Notes under the pieces: model-generated
Told to the model about the DNA's origin: nothing
Databases searched by the model: none
Seen by the model: the letters and a program-made list of their open reading frames with translations, nothing else
Program-made: the position numbers and the translations under genes
In this document: positions 17,370 through 52,479 of the stretch, in pieces
Layout: each line of letters begins with the position of its first letter
Position numbering within the stretch: the stretch's first letter is position 1
Source of the DNA: a virus
Reading direction: 5' to 3' (one strand)
Length of the DNA stretch: 63,037 nt
Virus record (IMG/VR): IMGVR_UViG_3300035670_010208
Location: 1 to 63,037 of that record

Positions 17370-17394
17370 AGCATCTGTGCTGTATGTTTGTACG

Positions 17395-18831
17395 ATGGAT
17401 AAGCTTAAAACAATCAAAGATCATCTAGATCAAAAAGATAAAACTCTTTTATCTGAAACATATGATCATAAAAATATTCAAATTAAATGCAATAAATGTG
17501 AAAGCGTGTATAGAAAAACATATGATAAATTGAAGTCATCAAACTACAGATGTCCATATTGCGAAAACACAAATAAACAACTAAATACAGAACAATTTAT
17601 TATAAAAAGCAATGCTATACATTTTGGAAAGTACATTTATGACAAAACATTTTACACAAAAAGCACAAACAGGGTGACGATAACCTGCCCAGTTCATGGA
17701 GATTTTCAACAAATAGCATCAAAACATTTATTTGGACAAGGTTGCATTTTTTGCTCTTATGAACATAAACAAAAAAACAACTCTTCTGATTTACAAGATT
17801 TTATAAAAAAAGCTTCAAATCTTCATAAAAATGAATACGACTATTCTAACGTAATTTACAAAAATAACAAAACAAAAGTATCTATTTTTTGCAAAAAATG
17901 TAAAACAACCTTTGAACAAAGGCCTGACTCTCATTTAATTGGAAAAGGTTGTCCGCGATGTTTATTGTTCGGAACATCTAATCAAGAAGCAGAAATCGTT
18001 GATTTTATAAAATCAATATATAACAAAAAAATAATATGCAATTCAAGAGAGATTATATCACCAAAAGAAATAGACATCTTCTTACCAGAGGACAATTTTG
18101 CTATAGAGTACAATGGACTATATTGGCATAAAGATGATAAGACGACAAACACCTATCATTATGACAAAACAATGCAGTGCTATAAAAATAACATAAAGTT
18201 ATTTCATATATATTCTGATGAATGGCTTGAAAAGAAAGAGATTGTAAAATCTATGATTAGCAGTAGATTAAATTTATCAACATTCAAAATATATGCAAGA
18301 CAATGTGTTTTTGCGAGTGTTGACTCAAAAATAGCAAAAGAATTTTACGAAAAAAATCACATCTCTGGTGGAGATTATTATAAACACAACTTTGCCCTAT
18401 TAAAAGATGAAAAAATAGTATCATGTATTTCTTTTAGAAAGCCGAGGCATATAAAGAAATATGTTTCTCATATAGAAATTGCAAGATTTGCAAATCTATT
18501 AAATCATAATATTCCAGGATCTTTTCAAAAACTTTTAAAAAACGCTATTCATCTTATTTCTCAAAAAGAAAACATATCTGCAATATTATCTTATTGCGAT
18601 CTTAGATTTGGAGATGGTAATGTCTATAAAATTTCAGGTTTTGAAGATTGCGGACACACTGGGTTAGATTATTGGTATACAGATGGAAAAATTAGAATAA
18701 ATAGATTTAAAATGGCGTCAAATAATTTGTGTAAAGAATCTGAAAAATCTAAAAATTTAGGAATGTATAAGATATATGGGTGTGGTTCAAAAATATATAT
18801 AAAGAAAGTATTATCTAATAATTATATTTAA
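17395..18831 (+). CDS. Free-standing EDxHD (Vsr-like) homing endonuclease with zinc ribbons
   Basis: Reading from the ATG at 17395, the 478-aa protein has three zinc-ribbon-like modules with CxxC pairs (NKCE...CPYC, CPVHG...CIFC, CKKC...CPRC, about residues 25-195). A nuclease core follows with the EDxHD pattern: E of QEAEIVDFI, D/E of EIDIFLPEDNFAIEYNGLYWH, and H/D of YHYDKTMQCYKNN and YSDEW. The C-terminal part is about 180 residues and is of the type found in phage homing nucleases. The gene sits between the capsid terminator and the next virion gene, is far more AT-rich than the capsid gene, and has no ribosome-binding site. All of this fits a mobile gene inserted in the late operon. A GTG at 17377 is an alternative start. 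Confidence 0.85.
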   Translation: MDKLKTIKDHLDQKDKTLLSETYDHKNIQIKCNKCESVYRKTYDKLKSSNYRCPYCENTNKQLNTEQFIIKSNAIHFGKYIYDKTFYTKSTNRVTITCPVHGDFQQIASKHLFGQGCIFCSYEHKQKNNSSDLQDFIKKASNLHKNEYDYSNVIYKNNKTKVSIFCKKCKTTFEQRPDSHLIGKGCPRCLLFGTSNQEAEIVDFIKSIYNKKIICNSREIISPKEIDIFLPEDNFAIEYNGLYWHKDDKTTNTYHYDKTMQCYKNNIKLFHIYSDEWLEKKEIVKSMISSRLNLSTFKIYARQCVFASVDSKIAKEFYEKNHISGGDYYKHNFALLKDEKIVSCISFRKPRHIKKYVSHIEIARFANLLNHNIPGSFQKLLKNAIHLISQKENISAILSYCDLRFGDGNVYKISGFEDCGHTGLDYWYTDGKIRINRFKMASNNLCKESEKSKNLGMYKIYGCGSKIYIKKVLSNNYI

Positions 18832-18859: not shown

Positions 18860-20083
18860 ATGCCACCAAATCTACAACCAATATCACAACTAAGTGCTAA
18901 AATATTGCCATCAACAGGATCTTATACAGAAGTATTGTCATCTTTGGCATTTGGCATCTATTCATCAAATGCTTTTATATCTGGTTGCGTAGATGCTGTT
19001 AGTTATGTTTATCAAAAACTTGGCGGCAACATTCTTGATATAGAACTAGAGACATCAAACGTATACAATGCTTATGAAGATGCTGTTTTAACTTATTCTA
19101 AAATAATAAATACACATCAAGCTAAAAACATACTTTTATCAGCACTTGGTGCATCAACAGGCTCGTTCAATCAAGATGGAGAGTTAACCTCTGGGCAAAG
19201 CATTTCTTTAAAATATCCAAATTTTACACTCGGATATGCTCGAACAATGGCAGAAGGATTTGCAAATGAAGCTGGATTTGGTGGTACATCTCCTATATAT
19301 TCTGCAAGTTTTCAAATAATACCAGGCGTTCAAGATTATAACCTACAGGCGATTATGTCGTCATCCACAGAATTTTCAGGGATTGTTGGAGATAATAGAA
19401 TTATAGTTAGAGATGTGTTTTACAGAACACCACAATCAATGTGGAGATTCTTTGGTTATTATGGTCAGTTTAACGTAATTGGAGCATGGGGTGCTTATGG
19501 ACAATACGCAAACGATAGCACTTTCTTCTTAGCACCTGTATTTCAGACAAAGCTTCAAGCATCTGCTTTTGAAGATGCTTTATGGACAAGAACATCCCAC
19601 TATTCATACGAGATATTGAATAATAACATAAGAATATTTCCAATTCCAACAATTGGCTCTCCTAAAAAGATGTGGTTTAGATTTTCTGTAAAAACAGATC
19701 CATGGTCATCTGGTTCTAATAATTCAAATGAAATAAATGGCGTTAACAACATTAACACGCTTCCATTTGCCAATATTCCTTATGAAAACATAAACTCTAT
19801 GGGTAAACATTTCATAAGAGAATACTGCTTGGCAAACTGTATGGAGACTCTTTCTTTTGTGAGAGGTAAATATGGACAAATACCATTACCAAAAAATCAG
19901 GTAAACCTAAATGCAGCAGATTTAAGAAGCAGATCTGACAAAATGAAAGAAGAATTGATTAAGATGTTAATGGACGATCTTGAACAACTAAAATATTCAG
20001 AATTGACAAAACAAAGAAAGGAAATGGCAGACAACGCTCAAGACTTGTTGCTTAAAATACCATTACCAATCTACTTAAAATAA
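18860..20083 (+). CDS. Virion protein, probable neck/head-completion component
   Basis: The 407-aa protein lies in the first position after the capsid gene and the mobile insert. It begins MPPNLQPISQLSAKIL and has a beta-rich centre with FQIIPGVQDYNLQAI, RDVFYRTPQSMWRFF and FRIFPIPT-like strands. The C-terminal helical segment contains GKYGQIPLPKNQVNLNAADL and ends in KIPLPIYLK. Position and this C-terminal pattern fit a neck protein (gp13-like place in T4 order), but I cannot confirm homology. It has a GCTAGAGGAAC ribosome-binding site and an upstream AATAATTATAT motif. Confidence 0.6.
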   Translation: MPPNLQPISQLSAKILPSTGSYTEVLSSLAFGIYSSNAFISGCVDAVSYVYQKLGGNILDIELETSNVYNAYEDAVLTYSKIINTHQAKNILLSALGASTGSFNQDGELTSGQSISLKYPNFTLGYARTMAEGFANEAGFGGTSPIYSASFQIIPGVQDYNLQAIMSSSTEFSGIVGDNRIIVRDVFYRTPQSMWRFFGYYGQFNVIGAWGAYGQYANDSTFFLAPVFQTKLQASAFEDALWTRTSHYSYEILNNNIRIFPIPTIGSPKKMWFRFSVKTDPWSSGSNNSNEINGVNNINTLPFANIPYENINSMGKHFIREYCLANCMETLSFVRGKYGQIPLPKNQVNLNAADLRSRSDKMKEELIKMLMDDLEQLKYSELTKQRKEMADNAQDLLLKIPLPIYLK

Positions 20084-43164: not shown

Positions 43165-46100
43165 ATGAGCGTAAATGAAAAAACAAAAAAGATTGAATCG
43201 GATTATTCAAAGTATATTGCAATGTCTAGATATGCCAGGTATCAGGATGGTCTAGATCGAAGAGAAACATGGAAAGAAACCGTAACGAGGCTTTGTTCTT
43301 TTTGGAAAGAAAAATATCCAGATTTATTTCCATACGAAGAAATGCATAAGCATATTGAATCTATGGATGATATGCCCTCTATGCGTTCTCTTATGACAGC
43401 AGGAAAGGCATTAGATCGTGATCAAGTTTCTGGTTACAATCCTGTTGTGGGTTCTACCCGTGTTGTCACTAGAGAATTTGGAAACGTCGCCATTTCATCT
43501 TTGAAAGATAAAACCGCGACAGTTTTGAATATTGACGGTAAATGGACTCAAGCGTTCTTTAGAAGCTATGGTTGCCAGAATATATTTTCTGTAAATACGA
43601 AATTAAATTCTAATACGGAAAAAACTGTAGGTTGTACAGGTAATCATCGGTGGGTATTACAAGACGGTACTGTAAAATCAACCTCAGAGCTAAAAGCCGG
43701 AGATAGAATTAAATTTGTTTCTGCGCAAAAACCTGAATTAGATGAAGATTATGAACTCGGCGTTAGACATGGTATAATATATGGAGATGGAACTGCTACA
43801 AAAACTTGCGAAAGAGTAAAAGGATATCACATAAGACTATGTGGCGACTCTAAAGAGTTGATTTCATGGTTTTCAGAATATCCAGTAGCGTACCCTCCAA
43901 GCGCAAACGGCGATCCTGTTATAATGATGTATGATGCATTTGCAGCTACTCATTCACTGAAACAGTTGCCACCAGAAACAGAAAGCGATAGTTATTTACT
44001 AGGGTTTATTAGAGGATGGATGGCGGCAGATGGATCTGTGACAAAAACTTCTCAAGTTTCACTTTGCACGTCAGATTCCGGGCTGGAATGGCTACAGAAT
44101 AATGGAGAGCGTCTCGGATTTGTAATTCAAAGAGTTTACAAGCAATCGTCAGAAACAAATTACGGAAAGAGGCGACAGAACAGTTATGTTATTTACATAA
44201 GTCGTTCTTCTTGTACAAAAGAAGATTTTCTTTGTTCGTGGAAAAGAAATAACTTTCAAGAACTAAATTCTCATTTCGTCGTTTCTTCAGTTGAAGAAAC
44301 ACAAAATGTAGAAGAAGTGTTTTGTGCAGAAGTGCCAGAAACAAATACATTTGTTATTGAAGGAGGGATGGTAACAGGAAACTGTTCATATTTGCCAATC
44401 AATGATCCAAGATGTTTTGATGAGGCGATGTATATCCTCATGTGCGGAACTGGCGTAGGCTTTTCTGTAGAGAGACAAGAAGTATGCAAATTACCATCAA
44501 TTCCAGATGAACTTTTTGAATCAGAAACAGTTATCAAAGTAAAAGATTCAAAAATTGGATGGTGTACTGGTCTTAGAGAATTGATTTCATTACTTTATGC
44601 AGGAAAAATCCCAAAATGGGATCTGTCAGGACTTAGACCAGCAGGCTCTAGGCTCAAAACATTTGGCGGTAGATCAAGTGGTCCACAGCCTTTAAATGAT
44701 GTATATTCTTTTATTGTTTCAATATTCAAGAGAGCGGCAGGAAGAAAACTCACTTCTATTGAATGCCATGATATTGTATGTAAAATAGCAGAATGTGTTG
44801 TGGTCGGTGGTGTTAGAAGAAGCGCCCTGATTTCGCTTAGCAATCTTTCTGACGAGAGAATGCGAGACGCAAAGACAGGACAGTGGTGGGAAAAAGATGT
44901 ACAGCGTGCATTGGCAAATAATTCTGTTGCATATACAGAAAAGCCAGAAATAGGCATCTTTATGAAAGAATGGCTATCTCTTTACAATTCAAAATCTGGC
45001 GAGAGAGGAATTGTAAATAGACATTCTGCAAAGAAAAATGCGGTTAACACAGGAAGAAGAGATCCTAATCATGATTTTGGAACAAATCCATGTCTTACTT
45101 CTGATACATGGATCTTTACTGACTCTGGTGCAAAGCAAGTAAAAGATCTTGTCGGTATTCCATTTACTGCAATACTTGATGGCAAAAAGTATCCTTCTAC
45201 ATCACAAGGATTTTTCTCATCTGGCATAAAACAAGTTTATCAAGTCAAATTAAAGAATGGAATGTCTATTAAATGCACAGGAAACCACAAATTTTTGACC
45301 AAAAATGGCTGGAAAAAAGTGGAAGAGATGGGTTCCGATGAGCATATTATTCTTGATAACAATCAAGGATTACATACATCTTGGGGTTCGAAACGTGGTG
45401 ATTTCGAAAAGGGATGGCTTCTTGGTTCGCTATATGGTGATGGAAATATAGCAAAAGATACTGCAAATCTTGATTTTTGGGGAGACAATAGATATGAAAT
45501 GCAGAATCTTTCTAAGATGTACTTAACTGAATTCCTTGTATGCAGAACAGATTGCGGAACAGGCATTGGACAACCAGAACATGACAGAGTAAGAATTGGT
45601 TCTCTATCTCTAAGAGAACACGCAATTGCATATGATATGTATGACTTTGACACAAAATCAAAGAAGATATCTGAACTTGTAGAAAAAGAATCTTCAGATT
45701 TTACAAGAGGATTTTTATGCGGTTGGTTTGATGCAGACGGAAGTGTGCAGGGAAATCATAAGAAAGGAATTAGTGTTAGACTCTCATCTTCTGATCTCAA
45801 AGCACTTCAGTATGCACAGAGATCACTTTCTAGACTAGGAATTGTTTCCAAGATATACGAAAATAGGCATGATGCTGGATACAGACTGCTTCCAGACGGA
45901 AATGGCGGATATAGAGAATATCATTGTAATGCAACACACGAACTTGTTGTATCCAACAAGAGCGTTCAAGCGTATTCAGAAATTGTTGGATTCAAGGATT
46001 CTAATAAGAATTCAAGACTGATGAATTATCTCTCTTCATATAAGAGAGAAATGAATTGTGATAAATTCTCTAGCAAAATAAAATCAATTATAGCAATTGG

Positions 46101-47094
46101 AGAGCAAGAAGTATTTGACTGTCAGATTCCTGAAAAGAATGCGTTCAGTGCAAACGGACTTGTGTCTCATAACTGTGGCGAAATCTCCCTTAGACCATTT
46201 GGATTCTGCAACCTTTCTGAAGTTATTGTAAGAGAAGATGATACTTTAGAATCACTTCTGAACAAAGTTAGAGTTGCTACAATTATTGGAACATTTCAGT
46301 CTACTCTTGTTAATTTTAGATATCTAAGAAGCATATGGAAAAAGAATGCAGAAGAAGAAAGGCTCCTAGGTGTTTCTCTAACAGGTATCATGGATCATCC
46401 CACGATGTCTGGAAAAGACGGCAAAGAAATATTAGAAGCATGGCTTGCAAAGCTAAAGCAGTGTGCTATTGATACAAATAAAGAGTGGGCAGAGAAACTC
46501 GGTATTAATCAGTCTGCCTCTATTACTTGTGTCAAGCCTAGCGGCACAGTATCTCAGCTTGTAAATTCATCTTCAGGTATTCATCCAAGATATTCAAAGT
46601 ATTATATAAGAACTGTCAGAGCAGATAAAACAGATCCTTTGGCTTTATTTTTGATGATTCAGGGTGTTCCTTGTGAAGATGATGTAACAAAACCAAACAG
46701 CACATATGTATTTAGTTTTCCAATGAAATCTCCTGACAATGCTGTCACCGCTCCAGAAATATCGGCTATCGAACAACTAGAGCTATATCTTACATATCAG
46801 AGATATTGGACAGAACACAATGTTTCAATTACAGTTTATGTAAGAGAACATGAGTGGATGGAAGTAGGAGCATGGGTTTATAAACATTTTGATGAAATTG
46901 GTGGAGTATCTTTTCTACCATATTCAGATCATGTTTACAAGCAGGCTCCATATCAACCAATCTCAAAAGAGCAATATGAAAAATTGGCTCTAGAGTTTCC
47001 AGATATAAATTGGGAACAGTTTATTGAATCTGGAGATACCACCAAGGGTGCTCAAGAGTATGCTTGTGTTAGCGGGATGTGTGAGCTTATCTGA
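43165..47094 (+). CDS. nrdJ: Adenosylcobalamin-dependent (class II) ribonucleotide reductase with two inteins
   Basis: The 1309-aa precursor holds three extein pieces: residues 1-92, 407-642 and 1004-1309. They join into a 634-aa reductase. Extein marks are CSYLPINDPRCFDEAMYILM, GTGVGFSVERQ, FGTNP|CGEISLRPFGFCNLSE (N-x-C-x-E radical site) and the C-terminal redox pair ACVSGMCEL. This pattern is of the monomeric or dimeric B12-dependent type, so no separate radical subunit is needed. It reduces nucleotides for phage DNA synthesis. Both inteins carry LAGLIDADG endonucleases and must be removed for activity. Spliced length is below many class II enzymes, with a short N-terminus. A ribosome-binding site AAAAGGGGAAA is present. 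Confidence 0.92.
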   Translation: MSVNEKTKKIESDYSKYIAMSRYARYQDGLDRRETWKETVTRLCSFWKEKYPDLFPYEEMHKHIESMDDMPSMRSLMTAGKALDRDQVSGYNPVVGSTRVVTREFGNVAISSLKDKTATVLNIDGKWTQAFFRSYGCQNIFSVNTKLNSNTEKTVGCTGNHRWVLQDGTVKSTSELKAGDRIKFVSAQKPELDEDYELGVRHGIIYGDGTATKTCERVKGYHIRLCGDSKELISWFSEYPVAYPPSANGDPVIMMYDAFAATHSLKQLPPETESDSYLLGFIRGWMAADGSVTKTSQVSLCTSDSGLEWLQNNGERLGFVIQRVYKQSSETNYGKRRQNSYVIYISRSSCTKEDFLCSWKRNNFQELNSHFVVSSVEETQNVEEVFCAEVPETNTFVIEGGMVTGNCSYLPINDPRCFDEAMYILMCGTGVGFSVERQEVCKLPSIPDELFESETVIKVKDSKIGWCTGLRELISLLYAGKIPKWDLSGLRPAGSRLKTFGGRSSGPQPLNDVYSFIVSIFKRAAGRKLTSIECHDIVCKIAECVVVGGVRRSALISLSNLSDERMRDAKTGQWWEKDVQRALANNSVAYTEKPEIGIFMKEWLSLYNSKSGERGIVNRHSAKKNAVNTGRRDPNHDFGTNPCLTSDTWIFTDSGAKQVKDLVGIPFTAILDGKKYPSTSQGFFSSGIKQVYQVKLKNGMSIKCTGNHKFLTKNGWKKVEEMGSDEHIILDNNQGLHTSWGSKRGDFEKGWLLGSLYGDGNIAKDTANLDFWGDNRYEMQNLSKMYLTEFLVCRTDCGTGIGQPEHDRVRIGSLSLREHAIAYDMYDFDTKSKKISELVEKESSDFTRGFLCGWFDADGSVQGNHKKGISVRLSSSDLKALQYAQRSLSRLGIVSKIYENRHDAGYRLLPDGNGGYREYHCNATHELVVSNKSVQAYSEIVGFKDSNKNSRLMNYLSSYKREMNCDKFSSKIKSIIAIGEQEVFDCQIPEKNAFSANGLVSHNCGEISLRPFGFCNLSEVIVREDDTLESLLNKVRVATIIGTFQSTLVNFRYLRSIWKKNAEEERLLGVSLTGIMDHPTMSGKDGKEILEAWLAKLKQCAIDTNKEWAEKLGINQSASITCVKPSGTVSQLVNSSSGIHPRYSKYYIRTVRADKTDPLALFLMIQGVPCEDDVTKPNSTYVFSFPMKSPDNAVTAPEISAIEQLELYLTYQRYWTEHNVSITVYVREHEWMEVGAWVYKHFDEIGGVSFLPYSDHVYKQAPYQPISKEQYEKLALEFPDINWEQFIESGDTTKGAQEYACVSGMCELI
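43441..44382 (+). mobile_element. Intein 1 in nrdJ: class 3-type with Pro1 and Trp/Cys/Thr triad
   Basis: The 314-aa intein lies between extein GYN and CSYLP. It begins PVVGSTRVVTREFG, so position 1 is Pro, not Cys or Ser. In block B the TGNHRW stretch puts His at B:10 and Trp at B:12 (W71). In block F, EEVFCAEVPETNTF puts Cys at F:4 (C295), where Asp is usual. In block G, GGMVTGN|C puts Thr at G:5 (T312) and Gly in place of the penultimate His. This is the WCT triad of class 3 inteins, in which the block F Cys is the first nucleophile. A LAGLIDADG nuclease is inserted (YGDGT near residue 115 and FIRGWMAADGS near 190). Confidence 0.85.
45091..46173 (+). mobile_element. Intein 2 in nrdJ: class 1 with LAGLIDADG endonuclease
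   Basis: The 361-aa intein lies between extein FGTNP and CGEIS, that is directly before the radical-site cysteine. It starts CLTSDTWIFTDSG (Cys1) and has block B SIKCTGNHKFLTKNGW. Its nuclease has two LAGLIDADG helices (GWLLGSLYGDGN and FLCGWFDADGS), block F is QEVFDCQIPEKNAF and the C-terminal end is NGLVSHN|C with His-Asn. This is a standard class 1 set of splicing residues. The insertion site is a known hotspot in ribonucleotide reductases. Confidence 0.93.
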
Positions 47095-50928: not shown

Positions 50929-52479
50929 TTAATTATCTTCTTTTTGATATTCGTATATACAAGCATCTGAAAGAACTAGCATTTTAACAACATTTGCAGC
51001 ATTCTCTACAGCATTAGAAAGACACATATGAACGTCAATAATCCCACTATCAAACGCATCTACTAGTTCTCCTGTTTTAAGGTTTAGTGCAAAACCTTTA
51101 GATGGCGATTTTCCGCCATGGTCAATATTAGCATTGCTGCACAGCCTATCAAAAGGTGCGAACAAGGCGTGTTTCCAGCTATCTAAGCTATTCTGCTCGC
51201 TCATACATGCTAGGGTACTGCCACCGCCTGCAACAATGCCAGATTTTATTGCAGACGCACAAGCAGAGATTGCATCTTCCGCCCTGTGTTTCCTTTCTAC
51301 TCTATCAAGTTCGTTATTTCCGCCTACATAAAGATACACTGCTGTTGATGACATGTTTGTGATTCTATTATGTAGCTTAATTTTCTCTACCTCATCTTCT
51401 GACGACTCTAGCTCTGCTCTTAGCTGAGATATCTTTAGTTCGATTGAGCCTTCTTTTGAATTTCCATTTACAACAAGACATTTCTGTTTTGTCATTTCAA
51501 GCTTTGAACAGAATCCTAAATCCTCAAGTTTGAAACTTTCTGGAATTGGTGTGTTTATAGCTTTGCCAAACTGTCTTGCGCCACAGAAAACACTAAGATC
51601 TTCAACAGCATCTGTCTTGTCTTTTCCAAAGAGAGATGTTTGAATTGGTATAAATTTGTTCTTGTATTTATCATCAGTTGATAACTGAAGTATCGTAGAG
51701 AGAACTTTGTCATCAAACTCATGAGCAAATAGAATTACGCTTCCTGGAATTGCTAACATAGATTTTAACATTGCCATGAATGGAGTTGAATGATTCAATA
51801 CGTCGTTGTGAATAAATATATGACAATTCTCTAGTACCAAAGAATTCTGATTTAGTGGAATCAATTTGCTGCTTGCAAGGCCGCCATTGAATCTAAAGCC
51901 ATCAAGAGTTTCTGTGTAAGAGAGAGCATTTGGTGTATCTTTGATTTGAATCATACCATCAGCTCCAACCTGTTCTATTGCGTCTGCAATAAGATTTGAT
52001 AAAAATTCATCTCCATTTGTAGATATTTTTGCAACATTATAAAGCTCTTCTTTTGTTTCAATGTTCTTTACATGTTTTACAACTTCAGATTTAAAAGTTT
52101 CTAAAAATTTATCAATCTTCTTTGCGATTTCAACTGGATGTTGACCTTCCTCTTTCATTTTCATGCAAGATTCTAGAAATTTGTATGCTAAAATTGTTGT
52201 GGTTGTTGTTCCATCGCCTGCAATTGTTGCTGTCTTCTTGGCAGAATTTCTAACGAAATCAACGCCAATTTTCTCAACCTCATCTTCTACATCAAAAAAT
52301 TTTGCTACGGTATAACCATCTTTTGTTACAATAGGTAGTTGTCCTGGCTGTTTAAGAATTACAGTTCTACCATTGGGGCCAAATGTTTTAGAAACTACAT
52401 CATGTAGTTTTTTGACTCCCGACAACACTTTTTTGTCAAAATCTGATTCTGATACTGTCTCTTTTTTTGTTTTAATCAC
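50929..52479 (-). CDS. groEL: GroEL-type chaperonin
   Basis: The 516-aa protein follows GroEL along its length. It has the equatorial KTFGPNGRTVIL (about 31-42), KDGYTVAKFFDVEDE, AGDGTTTTTILAYKFLE (the ATP-binding D-G-T-T-T motif near residue 90), an apical DGFRFNGGLASSKLIP and an AIKSGIVAGGGSTLACM equatorial return. It lacks the GGM tail of bacterial GroEL, and no GroES gene is visible in the window. Phage GroEL homologues are known in a few jumbo phages, where they can work as single rings without a co-chaperonin. It probably folds phage structural or enzyme proteins. Confidence 0.95.
   Translation of the reverse strand: MIKTKKETVSESDFDKKVLSGVKKLHDVVSKTFGPNGRTVILKQPGQLPIVTKDGYTVAKFFDVEDEVEKIGVDFVRNSAKKTATIAGDGTTTTTILAYKFLESCMKMKEEGQHPVEIAKKIDKFLETFKSEVVKHVKNIETKEELYNVAKISTNGDEFLSNLIADAIEQVGADGMIQIKDTPNALSYTETLDGFRFNGGLASSKLIPLNQNSLVLENCHIFIHNDVLNHSTPFMAMLKSMLAIPGSVILFAHEFDDKVLSTILQLSTDDKYKNKFIPIQTSLFGKDKTDAVEDLSVFCGARQFGKAINTPIPESFKLEDLGFCSKLEMTKQKCLVVNGNSKEGSIELKISQLRAELESSEDEVEKIKLHNRITNMSSTAVYLYVGGNNELDRVERKHRAEDAISACASAIKSGIVAGGGSTLACMSEQNSLDSWKHALFAPFDRLCSNANIDHGGKSPSKGFALNLKTGELVDAFDSGIIDVHMCLSNAVENAANVVKMLVLSDACIYEYQKEDN

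Follow-up and report, generated by a model that had tools for sequence, protein, structure and literature searches.

How does an intein that begins with proline start splicing, and from which inteins does it descend? These questions are raised by the nrdJ gene of a 63,037-base viral contig (hereafter the window, that is, the whole stretch of DNA analyzed), in which the first of two inteins, intein 1, carries Pro1. Because Pro1 has no side-chain nucleophile, the first step of class 1 splicing is impossible for this intein. We favor the reading that Cys1 was lost independently in a lineage that already possessed the Trp-Cys-Thr (W-C-T) triad and that Cys295 now starts splicing, to which, judging from sequence comparisons, we assign a probability of roughly 0.7.

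Two inteins in a phage ribonucleotide reductase

The window derives from a tailed phage with a contractile tail and encodes a major head protein, tape measure, tail sheath, DnaB-like helicase, and UvsX-like recombinase. A search with 23 kb of it (positions 20000–43000) against a phage collection returned no close relative. It also carries a phage-borne Cpn60/TCP-1 chaperonin at 50929–52479 on the minus strand (Pfam PF00118, E 6e-44) and, directly 3′ of the major head protein gene, a 484-aa HNH or homing endonuclease-like protein at 17377–18831 on the plus strand (PHROG 559). The features of nrdJ are as follows.

43165–47094 (+): nrdJ, two-intein precursor of 1309 aa, monomeric B12-dependent (class II) ribonucleoside-triphosphate reductase, from TIGR02505 and 1l1l matches
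43165–43440 (+): N-extein, C-terminal end ...VSGYN, from translation and empty sites
43441–44382 (+): intein 1, 314 aa, with Pro1, the W-C-T signature, and a TGN end, from translation, Pfam, the Pro1 alignment, and empty sites
43441–43443 (+): Pro1, codon CCT, at the Cys1 position; Pro in each of the 11 related nrdJ inteins (the sister group has Cys)
43636–43653 (+): block B, TGNHRW, with T66 (B:7), H69 (B:10), and W71 (B:12)
43726–44247 (+): LAGLIDADG (DOD) homing-endonuclease region (residues 96–269, bounds drawn by eye), from Pfam LAGLIDADG_3, a dN/dS of 0.11, and fold matches
about 43768–43797 and 44008–44040 (+): LAGLIDADG motifs HGIIYGDGTA and IRGWMAADGSV
44323–44325 (+): Cys295, block F:4, proposed first nucleophile, from its position in E-E-V-F-C295
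44374–44382 (+): block G, with Thr312 (G:5), Gly313 (G:6), and Asn314 (G:7)
44383–44385 (+): Cys+1 of the C-extein, from translation and empty sites
44383–45090 (+): extein segment separating the two inteins, end ...GTNP
45091–46173 (+): intein 2, 361 aa, LAGLIDADG, with a class 1 signature (Cys1, TGNHKF, Asp at F:4, and SHN before Cys)
46174–47094 (+): C-terminal extein with CGEISLRPFGFCNL, the C-terminal cysteine pair CVSGMC, and the stop codon

The nrdJ reading frame is open across all 1309 aa. The precursor matches TIGR02505 with E 2e-81, under the curated cut-off of the model because of the inteins or of divergence, and the spliced extein matches the Lactobacillus leichmannii RTPR (PDB 1l1l) with E 3.8e-49. 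Intein 1 is inserted at ...VSGYN^CSYLPI and intein 2 at ...GTNP^CGEISL, the latter directly before the active-site Cys of NPCGEI, which aligned with C408 of 1l1l. By position, we take the Cys+1 that follows intein 1 to be the N-terminal conserved redox Cys of RTPR (C119, L. leichmannii numbering), in a stretch that lies outside the HMMER alignment with 1l1l. Since both inteins precede catalytic cysteines, the unspliced reductase should be inactive.

The translation of intein 1 reads PVVGSTRVVT...TGNHRW...EEVFCAEVPETNTFVIEGGMVTGN, followed by CSYLPI, and bears out residue by residue what the original prediction had read: Pro1, W71 in TGNHRW, C295 at F:4, T312 at G:5, and Gly-Asn before the extein Cys. 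The Pfam intein-splicing and LAGLIDADG_3 models both match, the splicing match scoring below its curated cut-off with the intein alone and above it with the whole protein. Both ends are fixed by inteinless nrdJ homologues that read through (Y/F)N^C, a sequence found without insert in 75 of 80 related phage nrdJ loci. We considered a wrong N-terminal boundary and rejected it: with the start shifted by one residue (there is an Asn both before the intein and at its end), the intein would end in Gly and block A would fall out of register, so Pro1 stands.

The AlphaFold model of intein 1 with five flanking residues per side, whose input rows came from viral contigs only, had a mean pLDDT of 91.8, and Foldseek matched it to endonuclease-bearing inteins (TliVMA, PI-PfuI, and PI-SceI). 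With two LAGLIDADG motifs containing acidic residues and the DOD fold, intein 1 has the features of LAGLIDADG intein homing endonucleases. A phmmer search of the PDB with the sequence alone gave nothing meaningful; profiles of the intein 1 family matched mostly class 1 inteins, DnaE, and DnaB, and AceL NrdHF was not among the PDB chains matched.

The second intein of the gene carries the class 1 signatures listed above, as had been predicted, and M. smegmatis DnaB provides a precedent for two mechanistic intein classes within one precursor (PMC6195587). The NP^CGE site holds different inteins in different phages: the LAGLIDADG class 1 intein in the window and an apparent HNH-type intein in the related locus L021.

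Conservation and selection in the Pro1 inteins

Searches of viral contigs with intein 1 recovered ten further distinct Pro1 nrdJ inteins at the same site (L009, L014, L015, L016, L018, L019, L021, L137, L141, and L143), a count made without L022 (a near copy of L021), L020 (a copy of L019), and L010 (partial, start absent). Pro1, encoded by CCT, CCA, or CCC, is thus shared by 11 of 11 phage nrdJ inteins in this set, window included, and identity to the intein of the window is about 51–73%. The bacterial and archaeal genome collection that we searched yielded no relatives of intein 1. P1, H69, W71, C295, T312, G313, and N314 are invariant in a nine-row alignment of Pro1 inteins, and the same splicing positions are kept in three Pro1 loci found later; His B:10, Trp B:12, Cys F:4, T-G-N, and Cys+1 are present in all the relatives. 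Position F:13 (residue 302) is Asn in nearly all Pro1 inteins, Ser in L141, and His in many Cys1 relatives. The Asn at F:13 may compensate for lost helpers of Asn cyclization in the Pro1 clade.

The loss of Cys1 could have crippled intein 1, leaving it dead or able only to cleave, so that no RNR is made. Class 1 inteins are blocked when Cys1 is removed by experiment (PMC3196547), and the class 3-like intein Arsp-FB24 is a pseudogene. All splicing residues are nevertheless kept in the eleven Pro1 loci, the frame is open, and the catalytic cysteines of the extein are retained. Comparison of the window with L009 gave a dN/dS of about 0.16 for the intein (0.11 for its endonuclease part and 0.23 for its splicing part) and 0.05 for the extein, values that are rough because dS (1.26 for the intein) is close to saturation. 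The Pro1 inteins are under purifying selection, and these values, together with the residue conservation, indicate a maintained lineage and not a decaying copy. We therefore rejected a degenerate copy, and we consider the crippled intein very unlikely. We infer that intein 1 splices.

Cys1 relatives and the position of the Pro1 clade

Among 50,697 phage records, tblastn with intein 1 found RNR inteins in eleven records only, while a canonical class 3 fragment matched 454. The phage RNR inteins that were read through all have Cys1, and nearly all of them have the W-C-T triad. They lie in nrdJ of Thermobifida phage P318, in nrdD of fecal, Vibrio, Morganella, and Klebsiella phages, and in Vibrio phage nrdA, where one of two inteins has Phe at B:12. 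A scan of viral contigs with the nrdD set added 56 inspected relatives, all with Cys1, TxxHxW, Cys F:4, and Cys+1 and nearly all with T-G-N, many of them in nrdJ at the site of intein 1. The closest Cys1 sisters of the Pro1 clade, L149–L153, are 40–44% identical, and in four of these loci the nrdJ flanks are the same; the flanks AGEALKRENVAGYN^CSYVAV enclose a Cys1 intein in L151 and a Pro1 intein in L016. Some of the search patterns include NHRW or the block F WC and are biased toward W or C. L149–L152 plainly lack CTxNHRW and must therefore have been recovered via the endonuclease motif, L153 has ATPDHRW, and the tblastn matches among phages were not selected by motif.

The Cys1 inteins with the triad (P318 nrdJ, Morganella phage MP1 nrdD, and L149–L153) resemble the Pro1 inteins in TxxHxW, Cys F:4, a TGN or TGQ end, Cys+1, and LAGLIDADG, and many share the nrdJ site; they differ in keeping Cys1 and at F:13, which in most of them is His or some other residue and in the Pro1 clade is usually Asn. 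Penultimate Gly, which had been singled out as unusual in intein 1, is the norm in the Cys1/Pro1 family. The literature that we searched contained no experimental work on the Cys1 members. The family is large and lies mostly in RNR genes (nrdJ and nrdD). By eye, Cys1 inteins of the same family also occur beyond RNR genes, in apparent sigma-factor-like and DNA polymerase exteins (L023, L056, L159, and others). In the L080 nrdJ, upstream of the intein match at 2501, two inteins lie about 15 residues apart, with stops in the downstream frame: a canonical class 3 intein (ALEDSTPIKTKKGW...DEHLW...THN before SMQ) and a Cys1 W-C-T intein ending in TGN before Cys at the site of the Pro1 intein of the window.

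Canonical class 3 inteins (mycobacteriophage Bethlehem DnaB, M. smegmatis DnaBi1, and M. chimaera DnaB1) share with intein 1 the absence of a residue-1 nucleophile and the presence of His B:10, Trp B:12, Cys F:4, and Thr G:5, but they form a separate clade, with DxxH in block B of many, THN, and Ser or Thr at +1 (PMC6195587 and PMC5222942). Our reference set of 11 to 12 such inteins was assembled from phage records that tblastn matched to a mycobacterial DnaB intein fragment, plus the one in the L080 nrdJ. We masked positions 1, B:12, and G:5–G:7 in a 75-row full-length alignment, leaving F:4 unmasked. In the resulting tree, the support values were 100/99 for the Pro1 clade, 100/95 for Pro1 plus the five Cys1 sisters, and 100/99 for the Cys1 family plus Pro1, with canonical class 3 (100/100) on the opposite side. 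Constraint tests used clades named after earlier trees had been seen. Forcing Pro1 and canonical class 3 together in full-length data cost 51–53 log-likelihood units (AU p 0.0005; p 0.003 with another alignment), and forcing the Cys1 family to exclude Pro1 was rejected (p 0.011); the block B mask of L149 and L153 was correct in the p 0.003 and p 0.011 tests and misplaced in the 75-row tree and the p 0.0005 test.

These results bear on the possibility that intein 1 is a canonical class 3 clade member, of single origin, whose endonuclease was exchanged with the RNR family. Its W-C-T triad and lack of a residue-1 nucleophile would fit such a history. With the 122 splicing-domain columns only, the grouping of Pro1 with canonical class 3 was not rejected (AU p 0.40), nor was one origin rejected in early trees that lacked the five Cys1 sisters (p 0.41, 0.35, and 0.19), so the trees draw much of their signal from the endonuclease region, whose history could be a separate one. 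The profile scores of the splicing domain, however, are far higher with the Cys1 family than with canonical class 3 for either half. In HMM comparisons, blocks A+B of the Pro1 inteins gave 72–93 bits to the Cys1 family versus 0–13 to canonical class 3 (still 66–88 bits with the five sisters left out of the Cys1 profile), and blocks F+G gave 41–56 bits versus −1.5 to 5.5; in profile–profile comparison, E was 1.6e-57 with the Cys1 family versus 1.5e-7 with canonical class 3. Intein 1 has TxxH and not DxxH, its TGN precedes Cys where the canonical THN precedes Ser or Thr, and its block F–G spacing is that of the Cys1 family. The splicing-domain profile scores agree with the full-length tree and make a recombinant with a canonical splicing domain unlikely. 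Given the full-length AU values as well, we regard canonical membership as quite unlikely.

On this sequence evidence (nesting in the tree, profile E values, and the exclusion test), the Pro1 inteins share descent with the phage RNR family that combines Cys1, W-C-T, and TGN before Cys. The Cys1 family and canonical class 3 may share an old common root. Of the active class 3 intein that the original prediction saw in a phage nrdJ, the full W-C-T signature with Pro1, purifying selection, and probable activity hold; membership in the class 3 group of proposed single phage origin is not supported, since full-length trees nest intein 1 among Cys1 inteins and the full-length AU tests reject the grouping. 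A firm place among class 1 inteins with a triad arisen by chance had been named as one outcome that would overturn the prediction. The full-length trees do place the Pro1 clade among Cys1 inteins, as foreseen there, but we rejected chance as the source of the triad, which is invariant in the Pro1 inteins and carried by their Cys1 relatives.

Proposed splicing route and origin of the signature

Class 3 inteins are marked by the lack of Cys, Ser, or Thr at position 1, and all 11 inteins have Pro there, and by Trp B:12, Cys F:4, and Thr G:5, which are W71, C295, and T312 in intein 1. The usual, though not absolute, class 3 traits of Ser or Thr at +1 and a penultimate His are replaced in intein 1 by Cys+1 and Gly313, and exceptions to both have been published (PMC5222942 and PMC7891396). 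In class 1 inteins the first nucleophile is Cys or Ser at position 1, where intein 1 has Pro; class 2 is characterized by Asp F:4 and a KlbA extein, where intein 1 has Cys F:4 and an RNR extein.

A class 2-like route deserves attention nonetheless, in which the direct attack on the Asn-Pro1 bond would come from Cys+1, as it does in KlbA inteins, with Cys295 only assisting, like the Asp F:4 of classes 1 and 2. The +1 residue is invariant and a cysteine, as in KlbA, Pro1 is incapable of acting as a nucleophile, and block B of nearly all Pro1 inteins has the TxxH motif of classes 1 and 2 (PMC4031507). In class 2 inteins, though, which so far comprise just the orthologues of KlbA, the F:4 residue is Asp (PMC4031507); in the Pro1 inteins Cys F:4 is invariant, together with W and T; and in the B. 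vietnamiensis IcmO intein, Cys F:4 could not be replaced by Cys+1 (PMC5222942). We judge this route unlikely. Should intein 1 be active, it is quite likely that Cys295 acts first.

In the class 3 route, Cys F:4 attacks the N-junction amide, the N-extein passes to the +1 residue, and Asn cyclization follows (PMC4031507 and PMC5222942). Cys295, His69, and Thr312 occupy the block positions of the Cys-His-Thr triad of M. chimaera DnaB1 (PMC7664689). In the proposed mechanism, Cys295, with His69 and Thr312, would attack the Asn(-1)-Pro1 bond directly, giving a branched thioester; the N-extein would then move from Cys295 to Cys+1, Asn314 would cyclize unaided by any penultimate His, and the exteins would be joined in front of the catalytic cysteine by an S-to-N shift.

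Three known inteins are informative by comparison. The AceL NrdHF split intein, from a phage-like RNR and class 3 by experiment, resembles intein 1 in its RNR extein, in the use of Cys F:4, and in lacking His at F:13 and G:6; it differs in having Ala1 and Met at B:12, in being split, and in its class Ib small subunit extein (PMC7891396). Because AceL NrdHF splices within minutes without either His (PMC7891396), the missing penultimate and F:13 His are compatible with activity of intein 1. The B. vietnamiensis IcmO intein is likewise class 3 with Cys+1 but is a mini-intein in an IcmO gene (PMC5222942). The mycobacteriophage Bethlehem RDF intein has a natural penultimate Gly, yet splices; unlike intein 1, it is a class 1 intein with another extein (PMC5050341).

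The trees are most simply read as a loss of Cys1 after the triad was in place: in a single nrdJ lineage, Cys1 would have changed to Pro, and class 3 chemistry would have been reached independently of the canonical class 3 clade. The codon path from Cys (TGT) through Ser (TCT) to Pro (CCT) consists of single-base steps; this is codon arithmetic and not evidence that the path was used. We also entertain, at slightly less than even odds, the idea that the whole Cys1 W-C-T phage family already splices via Cys F:4, or via either cysteine, so that Cys1 was dispensable before its loss. Tori and Perler (2011) reportedly found that the class 3 route is used by certain inteins that possess both the triad and a nucleophile at residue 1. 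A Ser1 intein lies inside the canonical class 3 clade in L030, a mycobacteriophage gene. This gene may be an orthologue of Catera Gp206, which Tori and Perler reportedly studied.

According to reviews, class 3 is monophyletic, with a single origin in a phage (PMC4031507 and PMC3196547), and a structural study concluded that class 3 could not evolve directly from class 1, because a W-C-T graft onto a class 1 intein failed (PMC7664689). The nrdJ site presents a natural series in which the triad is complete throughout, with Cys1 in some inteins and Pro1 in others. Should the Pro1 inteins use Cys295, there would be at least two origins of class 3 chemistry, with intermediates extant, and the 1701 members counted under the definition "no Cys1, Cys at F:4" (PMC7891396) may include lineages that are unrelated. 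If the whole Cys1 family uses Cys F:4 or either cysteine, class 3 chemistry would have emerged two or more times by way of two-cysteine intermediates that were themselves functional. This would answer the objection that class 1 cannot become class 3 stepwise. The protein ligation toolbox would also gain from inteins that combine Cys+1 with a proline at the N-junction. The Pro1 W-C-T inteins thereby call the single origin of class 3 into question and would supply natural intermediates.
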